64,000 nucleotides of DNA, taken from positions 806,001-870,000 of the forward strand of contig NZ_CP015579.1 in the NCBI RefSeq assembly GCF_002163585.1, written 5' to 3'. Below the pieces are notes generated by a model that ran no database searches, was not told where the DNA came from, and saw only the letters and a program-made list of their open reading frames with translations. Positions 37,682-54,579 of this stretch are shown here, piece by piece. A program made the position numbers and the translations under genes. Each line of letters opens with the position of its first letter. Position 1 is the stretch's first letter. The DNA comes from Tatumella citrea (GTDB lineage: Bacteria; Pseudomonadota; Gammaproteobacteria; Enterobacterales; Enterobacteriaceae).

Positions 37682-39658
37682 ATGTCTGACGACATGAAGA
37701 CTATTAAGGGTTCGTCAGCAGGCGAACATGGGGTACTGCGTTCAATGCAGGAAGTTGCAGTGAATGATCAGGAAGCCAGCCGGATGTTAAAGACTTATAA
37801 CATCGCGTGGTGGGGCAATAACTATTATGACGTAAACGAACTCGGTCATATCAGTGTCTGTCCGAATCCTGATAAACCTGAGGTCCGTGTTGACCTGGCA
37901 AAACTGGTTAAGGAACGTGAGGCTCAGGGCCAGCGTTTACCGGCGCTGTTCTGCTTCCCGCAAATCCTGCAACACCGTTTGCGTTCAATTAACGCTGCGT
38001 TTAAGCGTGCGCGTGAATCCTTCGGTTATACCGGTGATTACTTCCTGGTATATCCCATTAAGGTGAACCAGCATAAGCGGGTTATCGAATCACTGATTAA
38101 TTCCGGAGAACCGCTGGGTCTGGAAGCGGGTTCCAAAGCTGAACTGATGGCAGTACTGGCGCATGCCGGGCAGACCCGTTCAGTCATTGTCTGTAATGGT
38201 TATAAAGACCGTGAATATATTCGCCTGGCACTGATTGGTGAAAAACTGGGTCACAAAGTATATCTGGTTATCGAAAAGATGACTGAGGTAAGGCTGGTTC
38301 TGGAAGAAGCTGAACGCCTGAATGTTACTCCGCGTCTGGGGATCCGCGCCCGTCTGGCATCTCAGGGCTCAGGAAAATGGCAGTCGAGTGGTGGTGAAAA
38401 ATCGAAATTTGGTCTGTCAGCGACCCAGGTATTACAGCTGGTGGACATAATGCGTAATGCCGGTCGTCTGGATAGCCTGCAACTGCTGCACTTCCATCTG
38501 GGTTCTCAGATGGCGAATATCCGCGATATTTCGACCGGGGTTCGTGAGTCTGCCCGTTTCTATGTGGAACTGGCAAAACTGGGCGTCAACATCAAATGCT
38601 TCGATGTGGGTGGTGGTCTGGGTGTGGATTATGAAGGCACCCGTTCCCAGTCTGACTGTTCAGTGAACTACGGGCTGAATGAATATGCCAATAACGTGAT
38701 TTGGGCGATTGGTGGTGCCTGTGACGAGCATGGTCTGGAACATCCTACGGTAATTACTGAATCCGGACGTGCGGTGACTGCTCACCATACTGTTCTGGTA
38801 TCGAATATTATCGGTGTGGAACGTAACGAATTTACCACCCCTCAGGCACCGGCAGAAGATGCCCCACGGCCAATCGTTAGTATGTGGGACACCTGGCAGG
38901 AAATGCATGAGCCGAATGTACGTCGCTCGCTGCGTGAATGGCTGCATGACAGCCAGATGGACCTGTCAGATATCCATACCGGTTACTCCGCAGGGACCTA
39001 TGATCTGAATCAGCGTGCCTGGGCAGAACAGCTCTATCTGAGCATCTGTCACTACACCCGTCAGCACCTGGACCCGAGCAACCGTGCCCACCGGCCAATC
39101 ATCGATGAATTACAGGAGCGGATGGCAGACAAAATCTATGTAAACTTCTCGCTGTTCCAGTCGATGCCGGATGCCTGGGGGATTGATCAGTTATTCCCGG
39201 TACTGCCGCTGGAAGGACTGAACAAATCGCCTGAACGCCGTGCGGTGCTGCTGGATATTACCTGTGATTCAGACGGTACTATCGACCATTATGTGGATGG
39301 CGATGGTATTGCGACCACCATGCCGATGCCGGAGTATGATGCGGATAACCCGCCGATGCTGGGCTTCTTTATGGTCGGCGCTTACCAGGAAATTCTTGGT
39401 AACATGCATAACCTGTTCGGTGATACAGAAGCGGTGAACGTTTATGCTTTTGATGACGGTTCAGTAGATGTGGAATTGTCAGATGAAGGGGATACTGTCG
39501 CGGATATGCTGCAGTATGTTCAGCTGGATCCACAGGAATTGCTGGAGCTGTTCCATAAGCAAGTCACTGCCAGTGTGATCGACGAAGATCTGCGTGACCA
39601 GTTCCTGTCCGAATTTGAAAGTGGTTTGTACGGTTACACTTATCTGGAAGATGAGTAA
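37682..39658 (+). CDS. speA: Biosynthetic arginine decarboxylase SpeA
   Basis: PLP-dependent fold-type III enzyme converting arginine to agmatine, first step of the SpeA-SpeB route to putrescine. 658 residues as in E. coli. The PLP lysine is Lys127 in [12 protein letters not shown]; other marks are [61 protein letters not shown] and [10 protein letters not shown]. The gene is divergent from metK and followed by speB after a strong terminator, so speB probably has its own promoter or partial read-through. Confidence 0.98.
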
Positions 39659-39698
39659 GCCAAAGGCGCTGCGTCAGGCGATGTTTGAACGCATGATT

Positions 39699-39727
39699 AG
39701 TCATTGCAGTCATTGCAGTCATTGCAG
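39699..39727 (+). repeat. Three tandem copies of a 9-base unit
   Basis: AGTCATTGC is repeated exactly three times (39699-39725) followed by AG, just after the speA stop. Such a repeat can change copy number by slippage. No function is evident. Confidence 0.85.
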
Positions 39728-39749
39728 CGAAATACCATAATTATCTATC

Positions 39750-39791
39750 ACCCTTGTGCGTCGGGTTTAACGACACACAAGGGTTTTTTTT
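39750..39791 (+). terminator. Intrinsic terminator between speA and speB
   Basis: CCCTTGTG pairs with CACAAGGG, extended inside by GTCG/CGAC with one mismatch and a GGTTTAA loop, followed by eight T residues. It separates speA from speB. Confidence 0.9.
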
Positions 39792-39862
39792 CGTCACGAT
39801 CAGGCCGGAATACTACTGTTTTTCAGTAGATTACCGGTTCACGGAAATATAGAGGAACAAAT

Positions 39863-40783
39863 ATGTACCATACCCTGGGTAATGAATATGACAACTCTCT
39901 GGTGTCTAATGCCTTTGGTTTTATGCGGTTTCCGCTGAATTTTCAGCCTTATGACAGTGATGCTGAATGGGTGATCACCGGGGTACCTTTTGATGCAGCC
40001 ACTTCCGGCCGTCCCGGCAGTCGCCTGGGGCCGGGAGCCATCCGTCAGATATCGACTAATCTGGCCTGGGAAGGGTGTCGCTGGCCGTGGGACTTTGATC
40101 TTCGCCAGAGCCTGAAGGTGATCGACTGTGGTGACCTGGTGTATGCCTTTGGCGATTCGCAGGATATGTCGACTAAACTGCAGGCCCACGCGGAAAAGCT
40201 GCTGGCTAACGGCAAGCGGATGCTGACGTTTGGTGGCGACCACTATATTTCTTTGCCACTATTACGGGCACATGCCAAACATTTTGGCAAAATGGCACTG
40301 GTGCATTTTGATGCCCACACCGATACTTATTCGAACGGCCCGACCTTCGACCACGGCACGATGTTTTACCACGCGCCTAATGAAGGGCTGATCGATCCGA
40401 ATCATTCGGTGCAGATTGGTATCCGGACGGAATACGACAAACAACTGGGATTCAATGTGCTGGACGCAGGTCGTGTCAATGACCTGTCAGTAGACAGTAT
40501 CCTGGCTGAGATTAAACAGACGGTGGGTGACCTGCCGGTTTATCTGACATTCGATATTGACTGTCTGGACCCGGCACATGCTCCAGGTACCGGGACACCG
40601 GTTATTGGTGGTCTGACATCAGATAAAGCCGCTAAACTGGTTCGTGGGTTACAGGGGCTGAACATTGTGGGTATGGATCTGGTGGAAGTTGCACCGGGTT
40701 ATGATCACGCTGACATCACCTCTCTGGCTGCTGCGTCACTGGCGCTGGATATGTTGCACGTACAGGCAGCGAACAAAGCGTAA
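39863..40783 (+). CDS. speB: Agmatinase SpeB
   Basis: Manganese ureohydrolase converting agmatine to putrescine and urea. 306 residues. Metal-binding motifs: [31 protein letters not shown] and [22 protein letters not shown]. The start [20 protein letters not shown] is typical, with GAGGAA upstream. It completes the arginine route to putrescine begun by SpeA. Confidence 0.97.
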
Positions 40784-40844
40784 CTGACTTGTGTTCGTCT
40801 GTTGAAAAATAATATAACGAACACTTAACGGGAAGGAGAGTCAC

Positions 40845-41252
40845 ATGGGTTTACTGGATGAGCTGGTAGGATCACTGACAGGCGGTCAGCAAAATAATCT
40901 GGGCCAGTTACAGGCTGTCTGGAGCTGGGTCCAGGAACAGGGTGGAATTGAAGTGCTGATCCAGAAATTTCAGCAGGGTGGACTGGGCGAAGTCCTGTCT
41001 TCATGGCTGAGCAATGGCTTTAACCAGCCGGTCAGCAGTGGTGATATTCAGTCTGCCTTCAGCAACGATGATCTGCAGTCACTGGCCGATAAACTGGGTA
41101 CCGATGTTGACGGCGCTTCCGGCACCTTATCTCAGTTGCTGCCACAGCTGGTTGATAAAATCTCTCCACAGGGTGAAGTTCATCCTGAAGCCACTGGCAA
41201 CAACAGCCAGCTGGATCTGGGATCGCTGGTGGAAAGTATTTTCAAAGGCTAA
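40845..41252 (+). CDS. YidB-like DUF937 protein
   Basis: A 135-residue small soluble protein of the DUF937/YidB family, function unknown. The start MGLLDELVGSLTGGQQNN, then GGIEVLIQKFQQGGLGEVLSSWLSNGFNQPVSSGDIQSAF and LSQLLPQLVDKISPQGEV are the family pattern. In E. coli yidB is elsewhere on the chromosome, so its place next to speB is a local rearrangement. AAGGAG precedes the ATG and a clear terminator follows. Confidence 0.85.
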   Translation: MGLLDELVGSLTGGQQNNLGQLQAVWSWVQEQGGIEVLIQKFQQGGLGEVLSSWLSNGFNQPVSSGDIQSAFSNDDLQSLADKLGTDVDGASGTLSQLLPQLVDKISPQGEVHPEATGNNSQLDLGSLVESIFKG

Positions 41253-41273
41253 TTAACAGTCTGTGTGAACCAG

Positions 41274-41304
41274 GCCGGTACTCTGCAAAGAGACCGGCTT
41301 TTTT
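41274..41304 (+). terminator. Intrinsic terminator of the YidB-like gene
   Basis: GCCGGT-(A)CTCT-GCAA-AGAG-ACCGGC followed by six T residues. Its loop and stem resemble the terminator at 50764 on the far side of the accessory cassette. Confidence 0.9.
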
Positions 41305-41471
41305 ACTGCCGTTCCGGGGTTAAGACCAGGAAATCTGCCGTCCGGGGCGCTGCCCGCCGTACCCGGGCTTGCGTTAAATTGAATGTTCGATGGTATATAT
41401 GCGACAATTGTCCGGCCTCAGAGAGGCTTTGCCAGCCCCACATACTCCAATGACTGAGTAAAATAATTTAA

Positions 41472-42212
41472 ATGATAAGAAAAAGTCCGATTCAGGTTAT
41501 CGATAAAGCCGTGACATTGCTGCGAATTATCTCAGATTTAAAGCAGGGGGCTTCAGCTTTAGAGCTGGCGAAATTATCGGGGCTGGATCGTACAACTGTT
41601 CACCGAATTCTTAAAAGCCTGATTGTCTGGGACCTGGTAATCCATGAAGATGGCATGTTTAAAAGCGGCCCTGAGAGCTTATTTTACTCCACCAGATATC
41701 TAAACCGGCTGAATATCCGTCGTGTTGCATTGCCGTTTATGGTGGAGATACAGAAATTACTGACTGATAAGCAGGCGGTGATTTCATTGTCTATTCCGGT
41801 GCGCGAACATGTGGTCCTGATTGAACGGATCTGGACCCAGTTAACACCACTCAATGTGTTAATGGATCTTTCCGACCAGTATCCGATTGATAAAATCCCC
41901 AGCGGATTAGCTATGCTGGCGACCTATAATCCCCTGGTTTGCCGTGAGATTCTGGATGAACAGCGCTGTGCGGAAATTGAGCCCCGTCTGACAGAAATTC
42001 GTGCTGCTAAGGGGTTCTGTATCGGTGCGAATGAACAACAACTCGGCTTAAACTCAATCGCCTACCCGGTGCTCAACCCCCGCAGTGAAGGAATTGGGGC
42101 GCTGGTCATTGCCGGGCTGGATACCGAAAAAGAGTTATCGTTAAATTCTCCTCTGGCGGGCCATTTGAAACGGGCCTGTGAAAATATTTCTGGTCAGCTC
42201 AACTATTTATAA
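41472..42212 (+). CDS. IclR-family transcriptional regulator
   Basis: A 246-residue regulator with an N-terminal winged helix (VIDKAVTLLRIISDLKQGASALELAKLSGLDRTTVHRILKSL) and a C-terminal IclR ligand-binding domain (DKIPSGLAMLATYNP, RAAKGFCIGANEQQLGLNSIAYPVLN). IclR proteins usually control nearby catabolic genes and respond to an aromatic or small-acid ligand. It points toward the ligase gene, their 3' ends overlapping by six bases, and is the only regulator in the cassette, so it is the likely controller of both divergent operons. No clear ribosome site precedes its ATG. Confidence 0.9.
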   Translation: MIRKSPIQVIDKAVTLLRIISDLKQGASALELAKLSGLDRTTVHRILKSLIVWDLVIHEDGMFKSGPESLFYSTRYLNRLNIRRVALPFMVEIQKLLTDKQAVISLSIPVREHVVLIERIWTQLTPLNVLMDLSDQYPIDKIPSGLAMLATYNPLVCREILDEQRCAEIEPRLTEIRAAKGFCIGANEQQLGLNSIAYPVLNPRSEGIGALVIAGLDTEKELSLNSPLAGHLKRACENISGQLNYL

Positions 42213-43697
42213 CTGCTCAATTTTTTTCATCACCTCGGCTGACTTTATTTTCCCATAGTGCGAACGTGGAAGAGAGTCGAGAATATAAAAAGTCTTCGGT
42301 ACCTTAAAACGGGACAGCTGGCTTTTACAGAATTCGGTGAGATCATCGGTGCTCATTGCAGTCGCAGGATCAGAAAGTACTATCGCCGCACAGATTTTTT
42401 CTCCCCATTCCGGATCCGGCTGGCCAAATACATGCACTTCAGAAATGCCGGGATGTAAAAGGATGCACTGTTCAACCTCTGCGGGAAGTACCGATTTTCC
42501 GCCACTGCGGATGATTTCTTTTATTCTGCCAACAATACGGATATAGCCTTGTTCTGTATATACCCCTAAATCCCCGGTTTTAAGCCAGCCATCCTGTAAG
42601 GTTTGCAAAGTCAGGGCTTCATTTCTCCAGTAACCTGCCATAAGGTGCATGCCGCCGATGATAATTTCGCCGATACCCGCCAGGTCAGGGCCAGCTATTT
42701 TTATGGCAGCCCCGAATACCGGATAGCCAGTCAGTCCTGAAAGTTCGCTGCCGGATTGGCGGATTTCTACAGGGAGCGTGGCATAACGTAAATAGCTACT
42801 CCACGGCGCTTCGGTCATGCCATATAACAGAGCCAGCCGTCCGTTGAACACCCGTAATGCCTGGTCCAGCACCTCACCGGGAATTGCTGATGCACCGATA
42901 TCAATACAGCCAAGAGCGGGAAGATCCTCCAATGGCTGATCTGGTAACAGACTAAGCAGTCTTGCCAACTGAGTGGGGACGAGTGAAGAGTATCTGGCTT
43001 CATGATATTGCAGCAATGAGATATATGACTCAGCCCTGAAACGTTGTTCTAATATGACGGTTCCTCCGGCCAGAATATGGGCAAGCACCACCACCGCAGC
43101 AATTGGCCACAATGGGCGGACGTTCAGAAATTTATCGCCGGGCACAATCTGCCTGGCGAGGATCATATTGGAAATAACACTGACAAATGAGGCATGAGTA
43201 TGCATTACAGCTTTAGGCTGCCCTGTGGACCCTCCGGTGTAATTTAAAGATAACAATTGTTGCGGGTGAATATCCGCTATCTGATAAGGAGTGGCCGGAC
43301 CTGAAGTGAAGAGTGAGACCGGAATACAGCGGATACCTTGCTGGCTCAGGGATAAAGCAACTTCACGACAGTTTTGCTGGTAAGCCAGTACCATGGCGCC
43401 AGAATCATTAATCTGCGACTGCAATTCCCGCACAGACAGGGCATTATCCAACGGGACTCTCACCCGACCGCTGGCCATCAAGGCGTAGTCAAGTATCAGT
43501 GATTCTGCATCCGTGTCACCTAACAGAGCGACTTTACTCCCGGCGGGTATCGACTGTTGGTCCAGGAACTTCGCAACCAGATGGAACTTATCAACAATTG
43601 CTGAAAAGGTGAGGGATATATGATTTCGGGGATCAATAATTGCAATGTTATCGGCATATTTATGCCGGGCGTTAAGAAACAGATGGTAAATATTCAT
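42207..43697 (-). CDS. AMP-dependent acyl-CoA synthetase/ligase
   Basis: ANL-superfamily enzyme that activates a carboxylic acid to an acyl-AMP and then acyl-CoA. 496 residues from the ATG at 43697. Core motifs: phosphate loop LNYTGGSTGQPKAVMHTH (PKA where most have PKG), YGMTEAPW, the hinge region DGWLKTGDLGVYTEQGYIRIVGRIKEIIRSGGKSVLPAEVEQ, and the catalytic lysine in RSHYGKIKSAE near the C-terminus. All key residues are present, so it should be active; the substrate is unknown. It begins one base after the alcohol dehydrogenase stop and is co-transcribed with it. Confidence 0.88.
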   Translation of the reverse strand: MNIYHLFLNARHKYADNIAIIDPRNHISLTFSAIVDKFHLVAKFLDQQSIPAGSKVALLGDTDAESLILDYALMASGRVRVPLDNALSVRELQSQINDSGAMVLAYQQNCREVALSLSQQGIRCIPVSLFTSGPATPYQIADIHPQQLLSLNYTGGSTGQPKAVMHTHASFVSVISNMILARQIVPGDKFLNVRPLWPIAAVVVLAHILAGGTVILEQRFRAESYISLLQYHEARYSSLVPTQLARLLSLLPDQPLEDLPALGCIDIGASAIPGEVLDQALRVFNGRLALLYGMTEAPWSSYLRYATLPVEIRQSGSELSGLTGYPVFGAAIKIAGPDLAGIGEIIIGGMHLMAGYWRNEALTLQTLQDGWLKTGDLGVYTEQGYIRIVGRIKEIIRSGGKSVLPAEVEQCILLHPGISEVHVFGQPDPEWGEKICAAIVLSDPATAMSTDDLTEFCKSQLSRFKVPKTFYILDSLPRSHYGKIKSAEVMKKIEQL

Positions 43698-43698
43698 A

Positions 43699-44724
43699 TT
43701 ATTTCCATCCCTGCAGAACAATACGGCCGGTGATATCGGAGGTTTCTAAGAGCTGATGGGCAGCAGCCACATCATTGAATTCCATCACCTGATGGATGAT
43801 GGGCTTGATAATGCCACGGCTTATCAGCGCCAACGACTGGTTGACTTCCGCCAGGGTGGCACTGCCAGAGCCCTGCAGGCTTAAACGCCTGCCAATCAGT
43901 AACCCGGGAGAGATATTAATATCATGCGGATTGATATTTCCGAGCAGAATAACCCGCCCGCCGTGGGTCATCCCCCTCAATGTTTCCGGTAAACTAACGG
44001 CCGTATTATCCAGAGCAACCTGTACTCCTTGCTTCTCTGTCAGTTTCCAGACCTCTGCAGCATATTGATTATCAGGGCTGACAATGACCTGGTCGGCACC
44101 TAATGATGATAAGAAGCCGGCTTTATTCGGATCTCTTGTCACGGCAATCACGGTGGCACCGAAAGCTTTCGCCAGCAGGATCTGATGGCTGCCTAATCCG
44201 CCACTGGCTCCGTTGATCAGTACTGTTTCTCCGGCTTTTAGTTGTGACAGATTAATCGCTCTCAGACTGGTCGCTATCGGGCAACTGGCAAGTGCCGCAT
44301 CTTTGAACGAAATATTGTCGGGCAGCAGCACAGTAGAAACTGCGGGAACTGAGATGAACTCTGCGTAGGAACCTTCGGTATCGACAGAGGGGGCACCCAA
44401 TGCTTTGCAGAGGTCATGCCGACCAGCCAGACAGAACGGGCATTTACCGCAAAAACGCCGCTGGTAGATAACGACACGATCGCCTGGTTTACGGTTATCT
44501 ACTTCACTACCTGCCCGTCTGATAATCCCGGAGGCTTCATGACCCAGTACTACTCCTTTACGGGCGTGTGGTAAACGCCCCTGACGATGCAGAATATCAT
44601 GGTGGCAGATCCCGGAAGCCTGGATTTCAATCAGTACATGGCCGGCAGGTACTTCGGGTAATGCGGTGTCACGGATAACCAGTTGTGACGGTAAGCCAAA
44701 ATCTTTGAGTATGATCGCTTTCAT
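43699..44724 (-). CDS. Zinc-dependent alcohol dehydrogenase (MDR family)
   Basis: Medium-chain dehydrogenase of 341 residues. The catalytic zinc ligands are in SGICHHD and GHEASGII, and the structural zinc is bound by CGKCPFCLAGRHDLC; the cofactor motif is NGASGGLGSHQILLAKAFGA. It interconverts an alcohol and an aldehyde or ketone using NAD(P). It is the first gene of the two-gene minus-strand operon with the CoA ligase and is divergent from the crotonase operon across a 127-base gap. The substrate cannot be told from sequence. Confidence 0.88.
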   Translation of the reverse strand: MKAIILKDFGLPSQLVIRDTALPEVPAGHVLIEIQASGICHHDILHRQGRLPHARKGVVLGHEASGIIRRAGSEVDNRKPGDRVVIYQRRFCGKCPFCLAGRHDLCKALGAPSVDTEGSYAEFISVPAVSTVLLPDNISFKDAALASCPIATSLRAINLSQLKAGETVLINGASGGLGSHQILLAKAFGATVIAVTRDPNKAGFLSSLGADQVIVSPDNQYAAEVWKLTEKQGVQVALDNTAVSLPETLRGMTHGGRVILLGNINPHDINISPGLLIGRRLSLQGSGSATLAEVNQSLALISRGIIKPIIHQVMEFNDVAAAHQLLETSDITGRIVLQGWK

Positions 44725-44851
44725 AGTTATCTCATAAATTACTAAGCTAATGACAAATTCATATAGAGAACAATGTGTGCGTATTGTGCACGTTGCGGTA
44801 TTCTAATCCCTCAGCCGGAATTTACAAGGTACATTTGGGGGAGCGTTTAGA
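44725..44851. promoter_or_regulatory. Divergent control region of the catabolic cassette
   Basis: The 127 bases between the two divergent operons must hold both promoters. The segment 44773-44797 contains GTGC-GTATTGT-GCAC and the half-repeat GCGTATT/GCGGTATT, a possible IclR-family operator. No unambiguous -35/-10 pair was found. Confidence 0.4.
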
Positions 44852-45568
44852 ATGACAATCAGTCATCAGTTAACGGCAGAAGGTATTTTACTGATAGGGT
44901 TAAACCGCCCGGAAAAATTAAATGCACTGGACGAACAATCTAAAATCAGACTCGGTGAGGTCTGGGATTATGCGCGTACCGAAGATAATGTCAGAACTAT
45001 TGTTATTTATGGGGAAGGGGAGCGTGCATTCTGTGCCGGATCTGATCTAAAAGAGGCACAGGAAAAAGGCCGCACGGTGACTACCGATATTTTAGCCCGA
45101 TCACTACCCGGAGTATTACAGCCTTTAAATAAACCAGTAATTGCTGCATTACATGGTTATACCCTGGGTCTGGGGATCAGCCTGGCAATCCACTGCGATT
45201 ACCGCATTGCACATCCGGATACCCGGTTCAGTTTTCCCGAAATTCATCACGGTATGCTTTCTGGGTTTAGCGCAATTACCCTGCCATTGCTGGTCGGTGA
45301 AAGTCGTGCTCTGGACCTGATGCTGACCGGCAGAAAGTTTACTGCACAACAATCACTGGACTGGGGGCTGGTTAATGCTCTCTCTGAACAGCCGCGGGAG
45401 AGTGCTATAGAGCTGGCCAGACAGCTTTCTACAGATAAAGTGGCACAAGCTGCAGGATGGACAAAACACCTTATTTTATCAGAGCGGCGGCGGCAGTTAG
45501 ATCTTTATTTCTCAGAAATAGACAAGGCCAGATTATTAGTCACTAAACAATCAGTGTCGCATGAATAA
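44852..45568 (+). CDS. Enoyl-CoA hydratase/isomerase (crotonase) family protein
   Basis: A 238-residue crotonase-fold protein. The oxyanion-hole segments are RAFCAGSDLKEAQEKG and ALHGYTLGLGISLAIHCDYRIA. Of the two catalytic glutamates of classical hydratases, the second is kept (SFPEIHHGM) but the first is replaced by serine (GLGIS instead of GGGCE). The same replacement occurs in hydroxycinnamoyl-CoA hydratase-lyase, so the reaction may not be simple hydration. First gene of an operon with the permease, flavoprotein, amidohydrolase and porin. GGGGGAG lies ten bases before the ATG. Confidence 0.87.
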   Translation: MTISHQLTAEGILLIGLNRPEKLNALDEQSKIRLGEVWDYARTEDNVRTIVIYGEGERAFCAGSDLKEAQEKGRTVTTDILARSLPGVLQPLNKPVIAALHGYTLGLGISLAIHCDYRIAHPDTRFSFPEIHHGMLSGFSAITLPLLVGESRALDLMLTGRKFTAQQSLDWGLVNALSEQPRESAIELARQLSTDKVAQAAGWTKHLILSERRRQLDLYFSEIDKARLLVTKQSVSHE

Positions 45569-45585
45569 ATTGTGTGAGAATAATA

Positions 45586-46890
45586 ATGAGTGATCAATTA
45601 AATACCCTCAATGAAAATGAAGTTTTTGGTAAGGTCGCCTGGCGGTTAATGCCTTTTCTCTGCCTGTGCTTTGTTATTTGCTGGCTGGAGAGAGTGAATA
45701 TCAGTTTTGCGCATTTGCAATTCAAAAGTGATCTAAATATTAATGATGCCTCTTTTGGGTTGATTGTGGGTGCATTATCTCTGGGGTGTCTGGTATTTGA
45801 TATTCCAGGTACCTTAATGCTGGAGAAATATGGTGCTAAAAAAACTATTACCCGGGTGATGATCCTTTGGGGAATCGCTACCATCGGCACGGCATTTGCC
45901 AGAACTACCGGACAGTTTTACTTTTTCAGATTTTTGCTGGGTGCTGCCGAAGCCGGGTTTTTCCCCGGGGTTATTCTCTATCTGACCTATTGGTTTCCAA
46001 CTGCCTGGCGAGCCAGAGTCTCGTCGCGGTTTATTATTGCTATAGGGATTTGTGGAATTGTTGGCGGCCCGCTGGCCAGTTGGGTAATGACACATCTGAA
46101 TGATGTCGCCGGTTTCAGAGGCTGGCAGTGGTTGTTTATTTTCACCGGCATCCTGCCGTTATTTATTGGGGTGCTGGCCTGGTTCTGGTTGGATGATAAA
46201 CCTGAACATGCCCGTTGGTTAACTGCTGCGGAAAAATCGCTGGTGCTGGCCACACTGACCAGAGATCAGCAGCAAGATAAGCCGAACAAAAAAGACAATC
46301 TGCTGAAAGCAGTCAAAGATTTCCGCGTGTGGATTATTATTGTCAGCTATGTATTGACTATTATTTGCACCGGCAATGTCGTGAATTTTTGGGCTCCATC
46401 GATTATTAAAGAATCCGGCAATATCAGTCTGGGGTCGGTTGGCATGTTGTCATCAGTGCCGTGGATTGTTGGTGTGATTGTCATGCTGCTGGTTTCCAGG
46501 CTGTCAGACCGTTATCAGGAACGGCGCTGGTTTTTTGCCGGGGGTGTCATCGCCATTATTACCGCATTAATTATTCTGCCGTGGGTATTACATAATGCCG
46601 GCTATACGGTGGCAACGTTGGTACTGATGAGTTCGGGCTATCTGGTGGCAACGGCTATTTACTGGACCATTCCCTCACAATATTTTTCTGAAAGTTCAAG
46701 AGCGGGTTGTATTGCACTGGTCAGCCTGTTTGGTCAGTTAGGGCAAATTCTGGTGCCGTCTTTTATCGGATACCTGAAAACCAATACCGGCAGTATTACT
46801 TCGGCGCTGCATTATGTGACGATTTTTATCATCCTCGGACTGATTATGCTACTGGCTGGTATTCCCGGGAAAGTATTGTTAAAAAAATAA
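45586..46890 (+). CDS. MFS transporter, anion:cation symporter family
   Basis: A 434-residue inner-membrane permease with twelve predicted helices. The N-terminal LMPFLCLCFVICWLERVNISFAHLQ and the GAAEAGFFPGVILYLTYWFP motif mark the ACS family, which imports organic anions such as sugar acids and aromatic acids with protons. GTG 12 bases upstream is a less likely start than this ATG. It follows the crotonase gene by 17 bases and precedes the flavoprotein by 17 bases, so its substrate is probably the compound degraded by the cassette. Confidence 0.88.
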   Translation: MSDQLNTLNENEVFGKVAWRLMPFLCLCFVICWLERVNISFAHLQFKSDLNINDASFGLIVGALSLGCLVFDIPGTLMLEKYGAKKTITRVMILWGIATIGTAFARTTGQFYFFRFLLGAAEAGFFPGVILYLTYWFPTAWRARVSSRFIIAIGICGIVGGPLASWVMTHLNDVAGFRGWQWLFIFTGILPLFIGVLAWFWLDDKPEHARWLTAAEKSLVLATLTRDQQQDKPNKKDNLLKAVKDFRVWIIIVSYVLTIICTGNVVNFWAPSIIKESGNISLGSVGMLSSVPWIVGVIVMLLVSRLSDRYQERRWFFAGGVIAIITALIILPWVLHNAGYTVATLVLMSSGYLVATAIYWTIPSQYFSESSRAGCIALVSLFGQLGQILVPSFIGYLKTNTGSITSALHYVTIFIILGLIMLLAGIPGKVLLKK

Positions 46891-46907
46891 TCTAATGAAG
46901 GCAGAAT

Positions 46908-48092
46908 ATGCGTGATTATATTGAATTAGCCTGCGAACTGGCGGCGAAAATTGCTCCGGGTGCTGCGGAACGTGATGCCAGCCGTACGCTTCCGTTCGGA
47001 CAAATGGCGATGATTCGTGACTCTACTCTGGGGGCGGCTCGTCTGCCGGCGCAATTTGGCGGCGGTGATATCTCTTTTACCACGGTGTCAGCCATCTTTA
47101 TTATTCTGGCAAAAGCTGACCCTTGCGTGGCTCAGGCCCTGTTTCCTCATTTTGCCACGGTTGAGCATTTGCGGCTGATCGCTACAGCAGAACAGCAATC
47201 CATCTATTTTGAAAAAATAGCCAACAAGTCATTGAGCTCCGGGGCAATTGCGGAGCGCGGCGGGAAAATTCGTGGCGAAATCAGCACCAGGCTGAGCTAC
47301 AGCGATGGCAGGTATCTGCTCAATGGCAATAAATTCTACAGCACCGGCTGTCTGTTCGCAGATTTCATCAAAGTACAGGCGGTAGGGGAATCCGGTGAGG
47401 CGGTCTATGTACTGGTGCCCAAAGATGCCCCCGGTCTGACACTGCTGGATGACTGGGATGGCATGGGGCAGCGGACAACTGCCAGTGGAACAACACAGCT
47501 GAACAATGTTGAAGTCCTCCCCGACTGGATTATCCCGTTGCATCACTGGGTCAGTAAACGAAATTATGTAGGGGCTGTGGCCCAACTGATTCATTGTTCG
47601 GTGGATATCGGTATCGGTCTGGCCGCTCTGGACGATGCCGTTTCCTGGATTGGTACCGGGGTCCGGCCGGTAAAAGAGAGTGGGGTGAACAGGGCCGCGG
47701 ACGATCCTTATATTCTGCACACCATTGGCGAATTATCTGCGCAAATTCATGCGGCGGAAGCACTGGTAGAAAGCGCTGCACGAAAAGTTGACCTGGCTTC
47801 TCAGGCTCAGTTAACCGGCCAGTACAGTGACGAGCAAACCGAACGCTTATTGTCAGCAGCTTCAATCGCGGTAGCAGAAGCCAAAATTTTGTCGACTAAA
47901 GCTGCATTGCAGGTCTGCGAACGTTTATACGATATCGGCGGAGCGGCGACTACCCAGAGATCGTTGAATTTTGACCGGCACTGGAGAAATGCCAGAACTC
48001 ATACCACCCATGATTCGCTGGATTACAAATATAAAGCGATAGGCAATTATCTGGTGAATGATATTTCTCCCCCAATTTCATTTCTGTACTGA
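46908..48092 (+). CDS. SfnB-like acyl-CoA-dehydrogenase-fold flavoprotein
   Basis: A 394-residue protein with the acyl-CoA dehydrogenase fold but of the SfnB/DszC subgroup, FMN- or FAD-dependent oxidoreductases and monooxygenases that do not act on acyl-CoA. Diagnostic segments: AERGGKIRGEISTRL, LNGNKFYSTGCLFADF, DDWDGMGQRTTASGTTQLNNV and the C-terminal DRHWRNARTHTTHDSLDYKYKAIGNYLVN. SfnB is known from sulfur acquisition in pseudomonads; no flavin reductase or sulfur gene is near here. The reaction is unknown. In the operon it lies between permease and amidohydrolase genes. Confidence 0.82.
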   Translation: MRDYIELACELAAKIAPGAAERDASRTLPFGQMAMIRDSTLGAARLPAQFGGGDISFTTVSAIFIILAKADPCVAQALFPHFATVEHLRLIATAEQQSIYFEKIANKSLSSGAIAERGGKIRGEISTRLSYSDGRYLLNGNKFYSTGCLFADFIKVQAVGESGEAVYVLVPKDAPGLTLLDDWDGMGQRTTASGTTQLNNVEVLPDWIIPLHHWVSKRNYVGAVAQLIHCSVDIGIGLAALDDAVSWIGTGVRPVKESGVNRAADDPYILHTIGELSAQIHAAEALVESAARKVDLASQAQLTGQYSDEQTERLLSAASIAVAEAKILSTKAALQVCERLYDIGGAATTQRSLNFDRHWRNARTHTTHDSLDYKYKAIGNYLVNDISPPISFLY

Positions 48093-48105
48093 GAAAGGGC
48101 TATTT

Positions 48106-49362
48106 ATGAATATTATCGCCGAATGGCCCGAACTGGATGATGATATCCAAACCTTGTTACCTGAGATTATAAACCTCAGGCATCATCTCCATCAGTATCC
48201 GGAATTATCCAACAGGGAATTTGCTACCAGCAAGTTTATTGCCGGACAACTGAGTAGCTACGGTATTCCTGTTCAGACAGGCATTGCCGGCACCGGAATA
48301 GTGGCATTGATAACCTGTGAACGACCGGGGATATGTCGTGCATTTCGGGCCGAACTGGATGCGCTGCCTTTAACCGAACAGACGCAACTGCCATATGCCT
48401 CGAAGGTACGTGCTTTTTACCCTAAAACCGGTGGTGGTGAGGAGGAAACGGGTGTAATGCATGCCTGCGGGCATGATGTACATATGGCTATGGTTCTGGG
48501 GTTCGCCCGGTTGGTGGCCGCTCACCCCCGGCGTTTTACCGGCAGTTTTAAATTTATTTTTCAGCCAGCTGAAGAAGGCGCACCGGACGGAGAAAATGGC
48601 GGGGCGCGTCAAATGATCAGAGAGGGAGTGCTTGATGTCCCGGTTCCGGATGTATGCATTGGACTGCATGTTACGGCGGGGCCGCTGGGTGAATATCGTT
48701 TGGGGCAGTATCGTACCACTGCTTCAGCAGATACTTTCCGGTTGGAGGTTACCGGCAAGTCAACCCATGCGGCTTTCCCATGGACCGGAATTGATCCGGT
48801 CCCCATTGCAGCTCAGATTATTTCTGCCTGGCAAACCATTCCAACCCGCCAGGTGAATCTGAGTCAGTCAATGCCACCGGTAATTACGGTTGGCCGGATA
48901 TATGGTGGACAGCGGCATAATATTCTGGCGGACAGTGTGGTTTTGGAAGGTACGGTACGTACGGTGGATAATCAACAGCGTGATTTCGTACTGCAGCGAA
49001 TGTCTTCGGTCAGTGAGGGAATTGCTACAGCGGTCGGGGCATCGGTAAAAATGTCTCTCTCTTCCAATAATTATATTGCCGGAAAAAATGAACCCTCACT
49101 GGTAGAAAGTGTAGTTCCGCAGCTTTCACTAATCAGCCAACATAAAGTAACGGTTGATGGCGGAACTTATGGTACTGATGACTTTGCTGAATATGCCCAA
49201 CGAGTACCCGGACTATTTATCAGAATGGGAGCAACACCGCCTGAACTGGTGGATTCTGGCGAATACATCTGGCCTACTCATTCAAATAAATTTATTGCTG
49301 ATGACCGCGCTATAGCTTTGGGGATTAAAACGTTCTCTGTACTGTCACTTCACCTTAAATAA
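48106..49362 (+). CDS. M20 family amidohydrolase
   Basis: Zinc- or manganese-dependent hydrolase of the M20D type (hippurate, indole-acetyl-amino-acid and N-acyl-amino-acid hydrolases). The ATG at 48106 gives MNIIAEWPELDDDIQTLLPEI and 418 residues with GAAAGGG upstream. Metal ligands are in MHACGHDVHMAMVLG, followed by FIFQPAEEGAPDGENGGARQM, with GKSTHAAFPWTGIDP in the lid domain and WPTHSNKF at the C-terminus. No signal peptide, so it acts in the cytoplasm. The likely job is to free a carboxylic acid from an amide conjugate for the CoA ligase. Confidence 0.88.
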   Translation: MNIIAEWPELDDDIQTLLPEIINLRHHLHQYPELSNREFATSKFIAGQLSSYGIPVQTGIAGTGIVALITCERPGICRAFRAELDALPLTEQTQLPYASKVRAFYPKTGGGEEETGVMHACGHDVHMAMVLGFARLVAAHPRRFTGSFKFIFQPAEEGAPDGENGGARQMIREGVLDVPVPDVCIGLHVTAGPLGEYRLGQYRTTASADTFRLEVTGKSTHAAFPWTGIDPVPIAAQIISAWQTIPTRQVNLSQSMPPVITVGRIYGGQRHNILADSVVLEGTVRTVDNQQRDFVLQRMSSVSEGIATAVGASVKMSLSSNNYIAGKNEPSLVESVVPQLSLISQHKVTVDGGTYGTDDFAEYAQRVPGLFIRMGATPPELVDSGEYIWPTHSNKFIADDRAIALGIKTFSVLSLHLK

Positions 49363-49388
49363 TAATAACTAGTTAAAGGTTAAATATA

Positions 49389-50714
49389 ATGAATAGGAAA
49401 ATACCATTACTGGTGGTGTTGGCTGTTCCGCACGCCGTTTTTGCCAGTGATTTTATTGATGATAGCAAACTTAATATTAATTTTACCAATATGTATATTA
49501 ATAATAAGTATGATACACCGGTGGCAAACAGTAATACCGGTAGATACTCCTCAAGAAATGAAGAATGGGCACAGGGTTATAATATTTTCTACCAGTCCGG
49601 CTATACTTCAGGGCTGATAGGACTGGGTCTGGATGCTGATGTGAATGGTGGGATTAAGCTCTCTGGTAATTCTGACCATCATACCGGTGGTACTATGATC
49701 CCGACCGGGGGCAGCAATGGTGCCGGGGTTCGCAGTTGGGGGCGCTTAGGTGGAGCGGTTAAACTACGGATTTCAAAAACTGAAGTCAGATATGGCAATG
49801 ACCTGCAATTTAAACTTCCGGTAGTGATCTCTAATAATGCACGGGTAACTCCACAGTATTTCCAGGGATTAAGTATTACTTCAAAAGATATCAGGCGAGC
49901 GGAGATTAATGCCGGTTATCTGACCAGAGTTGTCGGTCGATGGTCTACGGATCGTACCGGGCTTGCTATTGCCGGCGGAACCAAAGCATCTGACGGGTTT
50001 TATTTTGGCGGTCTGGATTATCATTTTACCCCGGGTGTGACCGGTCAATATTATATTTCTCAGCTGGAAGACTATTACACGCAGAATTATCTCGGCGCTA
50101 AGTGGCGAATACCTGTAACGCACGACAGTTCATTTGAAACGGAGGCTCGTTATTTTAACAGCCGTTCTGCAGGGCGTAACGGAGAAACCGGATATAAAGC
50201 CAGCGGTTATACCAAAAACAATGACGGAAAAATAAATAATAATACCTGGTCGTTGTCAGAAACTTACCGTCTTGGATATCACAGCCTGTTGGCCGGATAC
50301 CAGCAGGTTTCTGCCGACAGTCTGATGCCTACCCTTAATCAGGCCAGTCTTAAAGGGAAAGAGGCCAGCGGGGTCAACTATTATTTATATACCGACCGGA
50401 TGTTTTATAACTTCACCCGGGCGGGTGAAAGAACCCGCTATGTACAATATTCGTACTATTTCTCTGGTGTTAATATACCCGGGCTTACTTTTAAAATTGC
50501 CTATCTGAAGGGGGATAATATTAAACAGCGCAATATGGAATCTGCCAAAGAGTTTGAGCGGGATATTAGCCTGGCCTATGTCTTCCCGTCAGGTACGTTT
50601 AAAGGCCTGGGGCTGGAGTGGCGTAACGGGTTGTCTAAAACTAACAATATCTATGACAACACTAAAGGTAATAACCGTAACTGGTTAATTATGACTTATA
50701 ACCTGAAGTTTTGA
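49389..50714 (+). CDS. OprD-family outer membrane porin
   Basis: A 441-residue beta-barrel protein with signal peptide (MNRKIPLLVVLAVPHAVFA, cleavage before SDF). The mature protein begins DFIDDSKLNINFTNMYINN, contains alternating strands such as GYNIFYQSGYTSGLIGLGLDADVNGGIKL and SSFETEARYFNSRSAGRN, and ends with the outer-membrane signature phenylalanine (MTYNLKF). OprD proteins are substrate-specific channels for basic amino acids or small carboxylates. As last gene of the operon it probably admits the substrate of the cassette. Base composition looks more AT-rich than its neighbours. Confidence 0.88.
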   Translation: MNRKIPLLVVLAVPHAVFASDFIDDSKLNINFTNMYINNKYDTPVANSNTGRYSSRNEEWAQGYNIFYQSGYTSGLIGLGLDADVNGGIKLSGNSDHHTGGTMIPTGGSNGAGVRSWGRLGGAVKLRISKTEVRYGNDLQFKLPVVISNNARVTPQYFQGLSITSKDIRRAEINAGYLTRVVGRWSTDRTGLAIAGGTKASDGFYFGGLDYHFTPGVTGQYYISQLEDYYTQNYLGAKWRIPVTHDSSFETEARYFNSRSAGRNGETGYKASGYTKNNDGKINNNTWSLSETYRLGYHSLLAGYQQVSADSLMPTLNQASLKGKEASGVNYYLYTDRMFYNFTRAGERTRYVQYSYYFSGVNIPGLTFKIAYLKGDNIKQRNMESAKEFERDISLAYVFPSGTFKGLGLEWRNGLSKTNNIYDNTKGNNRNWLIMTYNLKF

Positions 50715-51247
50715 TCAATGAGCGCCACGATTAAAATGGAATTTTTCTTACCATGAGAAATTGCCGGCCTTCTGCAAAAAGGCCGGTTTTTTTATTGCTC
50801 TGTGCTAACTATCTGCAGGCGATCAGTACTGCTACACATTGCCTGCCGGTGGAACCGTGATCCCACTGGCGGATAGCTATAGCTGCACAGACAGAGTTAT
50901 CTGAAAACAGCACCGCCATTCATTCTCCTTCACCCGTCGCCGGCAGACGGTTGTTTGCCCGCGGATAGCTTCAGAGCTATTCAGCGTAATATTCCCTGCC
51001 AACTGGTAACTATCCGGTGTGAAGCGGGTTTAAACGGAAAATATTCCGTGATCATTACTTCAGGCGGTAGATCTGTCGCCGAAGTCTCTTTAGTCGCACA
51101 ATTCGCCGCCTGCGGCATATACTTTTGCCCTGTTTTTCATGTACATTTAGGGAGTAAAGTATTTCTGCCTTGCCTGATAATTGTTGATTTTCAATGAAAT
51201 AGCCAATTTCACTCAGGGAAGGCTTCTTGCCGATCTGGAGTTAAAAC
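50715..51247. other. Gap between the cassette and tktA
   Basis: 533 bases. It begins with the porin terminator and ends with the tktA leader (ribosome site CTGGAGTTAAA). An 80-codon frame at 50955-51197 exists but has no ribosome site and no recognisable composition, so I do not call it. No clear repeat or remnant gene was found. Confidence 0.55.
50764..50793 (+). terminator. Intrinsic terminator of the porin operon
   Basis: CCGGCCTT-CTGCAAA-AAGGCCGG followed by seven T residues, 50 bases after the oprD-like stop. Confidence 0.93.
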
Positions 51248-53239
51248 ATGCCCTCACATAAAGAACTCGCCAACGCGATTCGCGCTCTCAGTATGGATGC
51301 CGTTCAGAAAGCCAATTCCGGCCATCCAGGTGCCCCTATGGGTATGGCGGATATTGCCGAAGTGTTATGGCGCGATTACCTGAACCATAACCCGCAGAAC
51401 CCGTCATGGAGTGATCGCGACCGCTTTGTGCTGTCTAACGGCCACGGCTCAATGCTGATTTACAGCCTGCTGCACCTGACAGGTTACGACCTGCCGATTC
51501 AGGAACTGGCCAACTTCCGTCAGCTGCACTCACGTACCCCGGGTCACCCGGAATACGGCTACACCCCGGGCGTGGAAACCACCACCGGACCTCTGGGACA
51601 GGGGATTGCCAATGCAGTCGGTTTCGCGATTGCTGAACGTACCCTGGCTGCACAGTTTAACCGCCCTGGCCATGACATCGTCGATCACCACACTTACGTG
51701 TTTATGGGCGACGGCTGCATGATGGAAGGGATTTCTCACGAAGTCTGCTCACTGGCAGGTACCCTGAAACTCGGCAAACTGATGGCGTTCTACGATGACA
51801 ACGGTATCTCTATCGATGGTCACGTTGACGGCTGGTTTACTGATGACACCGGACTGCGCTTTGAAGCCTATGGCTGGCACGTAATCCGCGGAATCGACGG
51901 TCACGACAGTGAAGCCGTGCGTCAAGCGATTGAAGAAGCCCGCAGCGTAACAGACAAGCCGTCACTGCTGATGTGTAAAACCGTGATTGGTTTCGGCTCA
52001 CCGAACAAAGCCGGAACTCATGATGCCCACGGCGCGGCTCTGGGTAATGACGAAATTGCACTGACCCGTAAACAGCTGGGCTGGAACTACCCTCCGTTTG
52101 AAATCCCTGCTGATATTTATGCAGCCTGGGATGCCAAGGCTGCCGGCCAGGAAAAAGAGCAGGCGTGGAACCAGAAATTTGCGGCTTACCGCGAAGCCTT
52201 CCCTGAACTGGCAAAAGAGTACCAGCGTCGTACCACCGGCCAGCTGCCGGCAAACTGGCAGGCCGAATCTCAGAAATATGTTGAGCAGCTGCAGGCAAAT
52301 CCGGCAAATATCGCCAGCCGTAAAGCCTCACAGAATGCCATTGAAGCTTTCGGCAAACTGCTGCCGGAATATCTGGGCGGCTCAGCTGACCTGGCACCAA
52401 GTAACCTGACCATGTGGTCCGGCTCCAAACCGCTTAACGAAGACCCGGCCGGTAACTACATCCATTACGGTGTCCGTGAATTCGGTATGACCGCGATTGC
52501 CAACGGTCTGGCCCTGCACGGTGGTTTCCTGCCGTACACCGCGACCTTCCTGATGTTTGTCGAATATGCCCGTAATGCGGCGCGTATGGCAGCACTGATG
52601 AAAATCCGCCAGATCATGGTGTATACCCATGACTCTATCGGTCTGGGTGAAGACGGCCCGACTCACCAGCCGGTTGAACAGCTGGCCAGTCTGCGTACCA
52701 CGCCTAACATGAGCACCTGGCGTCCGTGTGACCAGGTGGAATCTGCAGTGGCCTGGAAATATGCGATTGAACGTCAGGACGGCCCGAGTGCGCTGATTTT
52801 CTCCCGTCAGAACCTGATCCAGCAGCCGCGCAGTGCTGAGCAGCTGGCGAACGTGGCCCGTGGCGGTTATATCCTGAAAGACAGCGACGGCCAGCCGGAA
52901 CTGATCCTGATTGCCACCGGTTCAGAGGTTTCTCTGGCGGTGGACGCGGCGGACAAACTGACTGCTGAAGGACGTAAAGTGCGTGTGGTTTCTATGCCAT
53001 CCACCGATGCCTTCGACAAACAGGATGCGGCTTACCGTGAATCTGTACTGCCTGCGGCCGTCAGCGCCCGTGTGGCAGTGGAAGCAGGCATTGCCGACTA
53101 CTGGTTCAAATACACAGGCCTGAAAGGTGCGATTGTAGGGATGACCACTTTCGGTGAGTCTGCCCCGGCAGATCTGCTGTTTAAAGAGTTCGGCTTTACC
53201 GTGGATAACGTGGTAGCGAAAGCAAAAGCCATCCTGTAA
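51248..53239 (+). CDS. tktA: Transketolase TktA
   Basis: Thiamine-diphosphate enzyme of the non-oxidative pentose phosphate pathway. 663 residues, E. coli length. Motifs: [48 protein letters not shown], the ThDP motif [14 protein letters not shown] with ending [13 protein letters not shown], and the transketolase segment [24 protein letters not shown]. The codon usage is strongly biased toward preferred codons, as expected for a highly expressed gene. With rpiA, epd and fbaA in this window it belongs to central sugar metabolism. The paralogue TktB is unlikely by synteny with epd. Confidence 0.97.
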
Positions 53240-53267
53240 CAGCATTTTGAGTCAGCTGTTAATCTCT

Positions 53268-53300
53268 CAGCATGGCAGATTCCTGTCATGCTGTTTTTTT
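53268..53300 (+). terminator. Intrinsic terminator of tktA
   Basis: CAGCATG-G-CAG-ATTC-CTG-T-CATGCTG with one mismatch, followed by seven T residues, 29 bases after the tktA stop. Confidence 0.92.
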
Positions 53301-53432
53301 AACTGCAGCCGGAACCGGCTAACTGTTTTATTTATGCACAATCATTGGTTAAAAATGTGAAGCTGATCGAAATATTAAGATCACAGTTGATCTCAGTCAT
53401 TCCCGTGTGACCAGGCATGATTTATTCTCAGC

Positions 53433-53446
53433 TGAAGCGTTTCAGT
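53433..53446 (-). promoter_or_regulatory. Cra (FruR) site upstream of epd
   Basis: On the minus strand ACTGAAACGCTTCA agrees with the Cra consensus RSTGAAWCSNTHHW at every position. It lies 114-127 bases before the epd ATG. In E. coli Cra represses epd-pgk-fbaA. Confidence 0.8.
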
Positions 53447-53559
53447 TGGGCTTCTTCAATGGCACCATCAATGATTGTTGTGCTGTTGTAATCAGACTGA
53501 CAGAGGCTGTGACGGTAACAGAAAGTACCGTGGCGGCGGTTTAAGGTAATGGTAGTGAA

Positions 53560-54579
53560 ATGACCATCAGAATTGCTATTAATGGTTTTGGACGTATTGG
53601 CCGGGGTGTGCTGCGGGCGCTATATGAAAGCGGACGTCATACCGAAATTTCGGTCATCGCAATCAATGAGCTGGCTGACAGTGAAGGGATTGCCCATTTA
53701 CTGAAATACGACACCAGCCATGGTCGCTTTGCTTATGAGGTCCGGCTGGAAGATGAGTTACTGAAAGTAGGCCGGGACACCATCCGTCTGCTGCATGAAC
53801 CATTGATTAAAGATTTACCGTGGTCTGAGCTGGATATCGATATTGTGCTGGACTGTACCGGTAAATATGGCAGCCGTGCTGATGGAGAAGCACACCTGGC
53901 GGCGGGTGCTAAAAAGGTATTGTTCTCTCATCCCGGAGGCAATGACCTGGATGCTACCGTGGTCTACGGAGTTAATCATCAGGCGCTACGGGAAGATGAC
54001 CGGATAGTGTCTAATGCTTCCTGTACCACTAACTGTATTATTCCTGTGATTAAATTGCTGGATGATGCTTTTAGTATCGTGTCGGGAACGGTTACTACTA
54101 TTCACTCATCGATGCACGATCAACAGGTTCTGGACGCATACCATGATGATTTGCGCCGGACACGTGCCGCGAGCCAGTCCATTATTCCGGTCGATACCAA
54201 ACTGGCGGCGGGGATTACACGGATACTTCCGAAATTTTCGGATCGGTTTGAAGCGATAGCCGTTCGGGTGCCCGTGATTAACGTGACGGCGATTGATTTG
54301 AGCGTCACGCTGGAAACGGCAGTCTCTGCCGCAGAAGTTAATGCAGTGTTGCAAAACGCTGCCCACGGGGTATTTCGTGGTATAGTCGACTACACGGAAT
54401 TACCGTTAGTTTCTGTTGATTTTAACCATGATCCGCACAGCGCCATCGTGGATGGTACTCAGACCCGGGTCAGTGGTCAGCACCTGGTGAAAACCCTGGT
54501 ATGGTGCGATAACGAATGGGGCTTTGCTAACCGTATGCTGGATACTACGTTAGCAATGTCTGCAGGTAATTTCAGGTAA
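53560..54579 (+). CDS. epd: D-erythrose-4-phosphate dehydrogenase Epd
   Basis: GAPDH-like NAD enzyme oxidising erythrose 4-phosphate to 4-phosphoerythronate, first step toward pyridoxal phosphate. 339 residues. NAD-binding [18 protein letters not shown] at the N-terminus, catalytic cysteine in [13 protein letters not shown], and [14 protein letters not shown] at the C-terminus. It is 50 bases upstream of pgk in the order epd-pgk-fbaA. Short of a search, GapA is excluded by context and by Epd-typical [24 protein letters not shown]. Confidence 0.96.

Follow-up and report, generated by a model that had tools for sequence, protein, structure and literature searches.

The 64,000-nucleotide stretch of the Tatumella citrea genome analysed here, contig NZ_CP015579.1 from position 806,001 to 870,000 and hereafter the window, carries an inserted cassette of eight genes. 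We hypothesize that it was acquired horizontally and serves, under IclR control, as a catabolic module for the uptake and coenzyme A (CoA)-dependent breakdown of a small carboxylate, plausibly a sulfur-bearing one, and the odds of this reading being right or wrong appear to us about balanced. The host genome comprises 4.49 Mb in two contigs. All eight genes are intact open reading frames (ORFs) within positions 41472-50714 and by their layout make up three transcription units, with the regulator on the plus strand, the alcohol dehydrogenase (ADH) and ligase genes on the minus strand, and the crotonase, MFS permease, SfnB-like, M20 and OprD genes on the plus strand. These units converge at 42207-42212 and diverge at 44725-44851. 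In window coordinates, the features are:

41305..50970, no strand: inserted segment bearing the eight genes, about 9666 bp, from alignment to congeners
41472..42212, plus strand: IclR-family regulator; Pfam HTH_IclR and IclR_C above cut-off
42207..43697, minus strand: AMP-forming acyl-CoA ligase; Pfam AMP-binding
43699..44724, minus strand: MDR zinc dehydrogenase (zinc ADH family); Pfam and NCBIfam
44757..44791, no strand: putative IclR operator; two 15-bp boxes of the GTTC-N7-GAAC type, 20 bp start to start
44852..45568, plus strand: short crotonase-superfamily enzyme; Pfam; Ser110/Glu130 replaces the classical Glu/Glu pair
45586..46890, plus strand: MFS permease, organic-anion type; Pfam MFS_1, 168.3 bits
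46908..48092, plus strand: SfnB-like flavoprotein with a predicted DszC/MsuC-type monooxygenase fold; TIGR04022, PDB matches and AF2 model
48106..49362, plus strand: M20 amidohydrolase; TIGR01891, 282.5 bits
49389..50714, plus strand: OprD-family outer-membrane porin; Pfam OprD, 352.7 bits; signal-peptide-like N-terminus
50763..50787, plus strand: terminator-like hairpin 3' of OprD; nine-pair stem followed by a T run

A sequence-only reading of the same DNA had taken these genes for one IclR-linked unit of catabolic composition, a view supported by the insertion and the conserved gene order described below, and the families it gave for the eight genes are those assigned by Pfam and NCBIfam. 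Its placing of ligase and ADH on one strand is likewise borne out, whereas the regulator, which it put on that strand too, is encoded on the plus strand.

Insertion and conservation of the gene set

The eight genes arrived as one piece, in a single clean insertion. In the sister species (G603) the sequences matching window positions 39000-41304 and 50971-53994, at 90-92%, are separated by 49 bp, and the same site is empty in G606, G605 and G098, making four examined congeners without the insert; G604 carries speB, the insertion site having been compared in the other four. Two of six genomes of the genus match the SfnB-like protein at E<=1e-50, with an orthologue only in T. citrea (G000), the matches in G603 being three distant paralogues. 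Among 198 sampled genomes of the family, four match it at E<=1e-100, namely T. citrea and three genomes with pairs of 44-47% identity; around these pairs no other cassette gene was detected at E<=1e-8. In plasmids the insert has no near-identity match and the best match to the SfnB-like protein is not above 46%. The earlier remark that E. coli lacks such genes between speB and tktA is in line with the finding of no match to the insert in E. coli genomes, by near-identity search only. The direct adjacency to speB that was implied needs correction, since a small ORF (40845-41252, 135 amino acids), presumably YidB-like, intervenes as the left neighbour of the insert; the stretch containing it is also present in the sister-species alignments. 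Similar GGCCGG-type terminator-like hairpins were seen at both insert ends (41272-41305 and 50763-50793) and possibly represent a recombination site.

The gene set recurs as a unit in other bacteria. Among the best 80 loci of a scan with the SfnB-like protein, 12 (eight from Pseudomonas and four from acetic acid bacteria) have the other core genes next to the SfnB-like gene, with order and orientation preserved. Of 398 sampled genomes from the genus of P. cichorii, 12 carry an SfnB-like orthologue at E<=1e-130, five of them known and seven new, bringing the related cassettes to 19 in all, 15 from Pseudomonas and four from acetic acid bacteria. The order of ligase, MDR dehydrogenase, crotonase, permease and SfnB-like gene is conserved in every one of them, and the comparison of gene order suggested by the sequence-only reading thus disposes of its own caveat, that homologues might never co-occur elsewhere. 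A TonB-dependent receptor is matched at 19/19 related loci, IclR at 17 (it is missing from L012 and L112), M20 at 13 of the 15 Pseudomonas loci and none of the four from acetic acid bacteria, and OprD at none of the 19. Short matches were obtained for the L012 ligase and the L018 ADH, copies that may be truncated or frameshifted. Seven genomes with other SfnB relatives gave no crotonase match at E<=1e-30.

A smaller form was found in Burkholderia stagnalis (L124, L131), where ligase, ADH, crotonase, permease and IclR occur at 39-49% identity with no SfnB-like, M20 or OprD match at the locus. It shares with the T. citrea cassette the five core genes and the divergent ADH/crotonase arrangement, and differs from it in having IclR after the permease and, in addition, a general porin, a RidA-family protein and a PaaY/CaiE-like protein (the latter two at L124 9045-10058). 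The same module, nearly identical in sequence to the B. stagnalis record, is present in one of 398 genomes in a scan of the Burkholderia family, and this genome probably belongs to the same species. Besides the query locus, one of 249 Acetobacteraceae genomes (L129) has crotonase and ligase genes loosely grouped with a permease gene and a RidA-like ORF; the latter was seen by eye, and a nitroreductase-family gene (346-1035) there was confirmed by Pfam. The core therefore consists of the ligase, the MDR enzyme, the crotonase, the permease and the regulator; oxygenase, conjugate hydrolase and outer-membrane channel are variable. When the 12 genomes of the first scan were searched whole, M20 was matched at E<=1e-50 in six and had no such match in two of eight Pseudomonas and all four acetic acid bacteria, and it is likewise unmatched at the B. 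stagnalis module; the conjugate hydrolase is thus accessory to the core, and the "conjugated acid" named as substrate by the sequence-only reading is not established, as M20 and the outer-membrane channel differ from lineage to lineage.

Other genes around the related cassettes were also noted by eye, namely a pair of sulfatase-like ORFs and a further large outer-membrane-receptor-like ORF near that of Acetobacter persici (L018 13477-17421) and a nitroreductase-family gene beside that of L013 (1040-1675). As clues to function, the nitroreductase/old-yellow-enzyme genes near L013, L015 and L129 and the sulfur-like genes near L010, L012 and L018 were set aside as too scattered.

The regulator has the PcaR/PcaU/PobR subfamily as its best NCBIfam model, at 66.6 bits and below its cut-off. 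The divergent promoter contains a conserved operator-like box pair, which recurs in 21 ADH/crotonase intergenic regions with a mean best score of 13.4/16 at a spacing of 20 bp, by a consensus drawn from these same sequences, against 10.6/16 at the next best of 28 spacings tried (12-39). Box 1 reaches at least 6/8 in 21/21 regions and box 2 in 19 (not L017 and L018), and the pair at 44757-44791 is the sole one in the window scoring at least 13/16. Dinucleotide shuffles at this spacing never reached the observed score (0/2000) in six of the eight regions tested and did so 2/2000 times for L011; at spacings 22-25 the shuffle test gave no excess, without bearing on the 20-bp pair. From sequence, IclR is predicted to bind at 44757-44791.

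These data also bear on whether the genes are chance neighbours that are used separately, which we regard as most improbable. The accessory genes differ by lineage and the gene trees are partly incongruent: the T. citrea ligase, crotonase and SfnB-like protein cluster with those of Pseudomonas, its ADH (0.97) and permease (0.856) with those of acetic acid bacteria, its IclR is basal, and its M20 falls among Pseudomonas. Against this stand the order conserved in 19 further genomes, the single clean insertion and the common operator-like pair, and the fact that flanks are common only to some Pseudomonas loci (e.g. L008/L112, L014/L015/L114 and L010/L111), with no sharing between lineages in the flanks of the fetched loci.

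The flavoprotein and the sulfur question

The SfnB-like flavoprotein scores 411.8 bits with TIGR04022 (SfnB family), below the curated cut-off of 430.9, a small correction to the sequence-only reading. By sequence, its nearest solved proteins in the PDB are TdsC, DszC, 8cda and MsuC. A fold search with its AF2 model (pLDDT 90) gave the same four proteins at ranks 1-27 with TMq 0.85-0.93; among the best 50 of 520 matches, butyryl-CoA and other acyl-CoA dehydrogenases had TMq 0.76-0.81, while the entry 5gj7, a putative acyl-CoA dehydrogenase by its title, had 0.82. As modelled, the fold is nearer to DszC/MsuC than to acyl-CoA dehydrogenases. In addition, His365 and His368 are present in 20/20 cassette SfnB-like proteins, and His368 aligns with His391 of DszC, a residue involved in hydroperoxide formation according to PMC11134501. 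The predicted activity is FMNH2-dependent oxygenation, most plausibly at sulfur.

The surroundings of more distant relatives were considered at five loci with SfnB-like proteins of 45-51% identity (L019, L021, L024, L026 and a Sodalis plasmid), the neighbours being called by Pfam for L019 and L026, from the record annotation for Sodalis, and by eye from the N-terminus for L021 and L024. Luciferase-like monooxygenase and ABC-transporter genes lie near all five and a rhodanese gene near three, neighbours which fit organosulfur use. It is because of these neighbours and the oxygenase branch that we favour a sulfur-bearing substrate. Elsewhere in T. citrea (C1:375064-381190, L119) four further SfnB-like genes accompany luciferase-like monooxygenases and an NlpA-type lipoprotein, a cluster probably serving organosulfur use; the sister species G603 has three SfnB-like matches at E<=1e-50.

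Carbon chemistry and uptake

The closest solved relatives of the ligase, at 196 bits, are 8weu, a fatty-acyl-CoA synthase by name, and 8wev, a feruloyl-CoA synthetase, and R194, W197 and P198 are invariant in 22/22 homologues. The crotonase has Ser110 at the first catalytic glutamate position (20 Ser and 2 Thr of 22) and Glu130 at the second in 22/22, and in this differs from classical enoyl-CoA hydratases, which have both catalytic glutamates; this Ser/Glu pair we take to be the pattern of hydroxycinnamoyl-CoA hydratase-lyases. Its C-terminus is short, the Burkholderia and L129 forms being the exceptions. Together these matches recall a pathway for hydroxycinnamates or their plant amide conjugates, in which M20 would cleave an aromatic amide, the ligase form a cinnamoyl-CoA, the crotonase act as hydratase-lyase to give an aldehyde and the dehydrogenase convert the latter. 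The permease match to HpaX (256.2 bits, cut-off 615.4) and the PcaR/PcaU/PobR affinity of the regulator, both below cut-off, point the same way. Nevertheless, this explanation is unlikely in our judgement: the ligase match reflects overall similarity and not specificity residues, no aldehyde dehydrogenase (among ORFs of at least 150 amino acids) or ring-cleavage gene is found in the cassette, a DszC-type monooxygenase would have no obvious role, and 4/20 cassettes come from acetic acid bacteria, a group that seldom uses aromatics.

For the MDR enzyme, the closest solved chain is 5k1s, presumably the enoyl-CoA reductase AibC, at 229.6 bits versus 154.8 for the next. Its best NCBIfam models, both below cut-off, are PRK13771 (putative alcohol dehydrogenase, 247.7 bits) and NF041172 (acryloyl-CoA reductase, 217.9), and its structural-zinc cysteines are kept in 21/21. 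By sequence similarity, it is possibly an enoyl-CoA reductase of the AibC/acryloyl-CoA reductase type. The name dimethylacrylyl-CoA reductase is given to AibC in PMC5004256. One may accordingly picture a beta-methyl enoate pathway, with a 3-methyl-branched unsaturated acid (dimethylacrylate or of isoprenoid type) as substrate of this AibC-like enzyme, and the top solved sequence match of the crotonase, the mevalonyl-CoA hydratase SidH, would agree with it. SidH, however, leads by merely 105.2 versus 101.3 bits and ranks 32 by fold, and the monooxygenase would stay unexplained, so that we consider this pathway quite unlikely.

The sequence-only reading had drawn an analogy with methylthiopropionate use. 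As a DmdB/DmdC/DmdD route, this would make the SfnB-like protein the acyl-CoA dehydrogenase. A ligase, a protein of the acyl-CoA dehydrogenase (ACAD) fold and a crotonase are indeed present, and the fold search with the crotonase model (pLDDT 84), which matched isomerases, hydratases and DmdD about equally, has DmdD at rank 21. But the flavoprotein is nearest to S-monooxygenases and not to dehydrogenases, by sequence as well as by fold, and the crotonase has serine where the classical first glutamate stands; the analogy is accordingly weak and such a route very unlikely.

Concerning uptake, the permease scores 336.9 bits with the D-galactonate transporter subfamily TIGR00893 (cut-off 395). The outer-membrane channel is OprD in T. 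citrea and a TonB-dependent receptor in the relatives. This receptor gave weak matches to solved receptors (best 68.7 bits, over its N-terminal part) and to two T. citrea receptors (50.2 and 48.2 bits), and therefore offers no clue to the substrate; OprD relatives on two Pseudomonas plasmids have no informative neighbours. The M20 protein belongs to the M20D subgroup, as the sequence-only reading had it (TIGR01891 cut-off 153.75 bits), and keeps all six motif residues, which we take to be metal ligands, in 14/14 proteins. In T. citrea no signal peptide is seen, and AGAAAGGG, resembling a ribosome-binding site, lies immediately 5' of the start. Among 13 Pseudomonas orthologues the N-terminus is hydrophobic as called in nine, and four are called with later starts, one of which (L010) has a longer ORF whose start is signal-like. 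Export-signal-like starts, unlike that of T. citrea, were noted at L008, L012-L015, L112 and L115-L117. Judging from these N-termini, M20 appears to be exported in Pseudomonas and cytoplasmic in Tatumella.

Proposed pathway and known systems

In the order of steps that we infer, IclR would act on the two-box putative operator in the divergent dehydrogenase/crotonase promoter, and the acid, or its N-acyl-amino-acid conjugate, would enter through OprD (the TonB-dependent receptor in relatives) and then the MFS permease. The Tatumella M20, lacking a signal peptide, would release the acid in the cytoplasm and the ligase would form its CoA thioester. The DszC/MsuC-type FMNH2-dependent monooxygenase would then oxygenate the substrate, most plausibly at sulfur, with a flavin reductase encoded elsewhere, after which the crotonase would hydrate, isomerise or eliminate. 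Finally, the MDR enzyme would either reduce or oxidise the CoA intermediate so formed, and general beta-oxidation would take up what it yields. A more specific version, a new organosulfur-acid route in which the thioether sulfur of a CoA-bound acid is oxygenated, the oxidised group eliminated by the single-glutamate crotonase and the remaining enoyl-CoA saturated by the AibC/acryloyl-CoA-reductase-like enzyme, strikes us as rather improbable.

Three genes with a flavin-reductase domain elsewhere in the T. citrea genome count in favour of a sulfur-bearing carboxylate as substrate of an IclR-regulated module. Several observations weigh against it. The cassette itself has neither a flavin reductase nor a thiolase nor any sulfur-specific gene, and the fold is not specific for sulfur, TdsC having been solved with indole and nitrososynthases being among the fold matches. 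The core can exist without oxygenation, as in the B. stagnalis module without SfnB-like protein and M20. The box pair of that module is weak (12/16, reached by 26/2000 shuffles), and the box figures, given how the consensus was drawn, lean favourable. Congruence among the gene trees is only partial, possibly because genes were exchanged inside the cassette or because the trees are weakly resolved. Siderophore-acyl, jasmonate and ergothioneine substrates were dropped, there being no evidence for them.

Since Pseudomonas, acetic acid bacteria and one enteric all carry the module as a unit, it is probably there for some specific compound that all three groups meet; our guess for a shared source, from the habitats of these bacteria, would be plants and fruit. 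Identifying that compound would give a function to enzymes now named by family alone. The module's outer-membrane channel has been swapped and its M20 enzyme has apparently changed compartment, which makes it a useful case of module evolution.

In the literature searched, with most subscription papers outside its reach, no described pathway with this gene set was found, in agreement with the sequence-only reading, and no relevant literature on the S-(2-succino)cysteine pathway. The Fcs-Ech-Vdh system for hydroxycinnamates shares with the cassette a ligase near feruloyl-CoA synthetase and a Ser/Glu crotonase, whereas the cassette has no Vdh and has a monooxygenase and an MDR enzyme in addition. 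DmdB-DmdC-DmdD has in common with it the ligase, the ACAD-fold flavoprotein and the crotonase; the cassette differs in a flavoprotein of the monooxygenase branch, another crotonase active site, and the extra MDR enzyme and M20. The AibC/acryloyl-CoA reductases provide the closest solved relative of the MDR enzyme and one of its two top-scoring NCBIfam models, yet the pathway context of AibC is a different one. With SfnB/TIGR04022 and with DszC, TdsC and MsuC, the cassette flavoprotein shares the fold, the His365/His368 motif and a near-cut-off family score, but its score is under the TIGR04022 cut-off and its gene adjoins CoA ligase, crotonase and IclR genes instead of a sulfonate/sulfone operon. 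The cassette thus joins two usually separate chemistries, CoA-dependent acid breakdown and DszC-type oxygenation.

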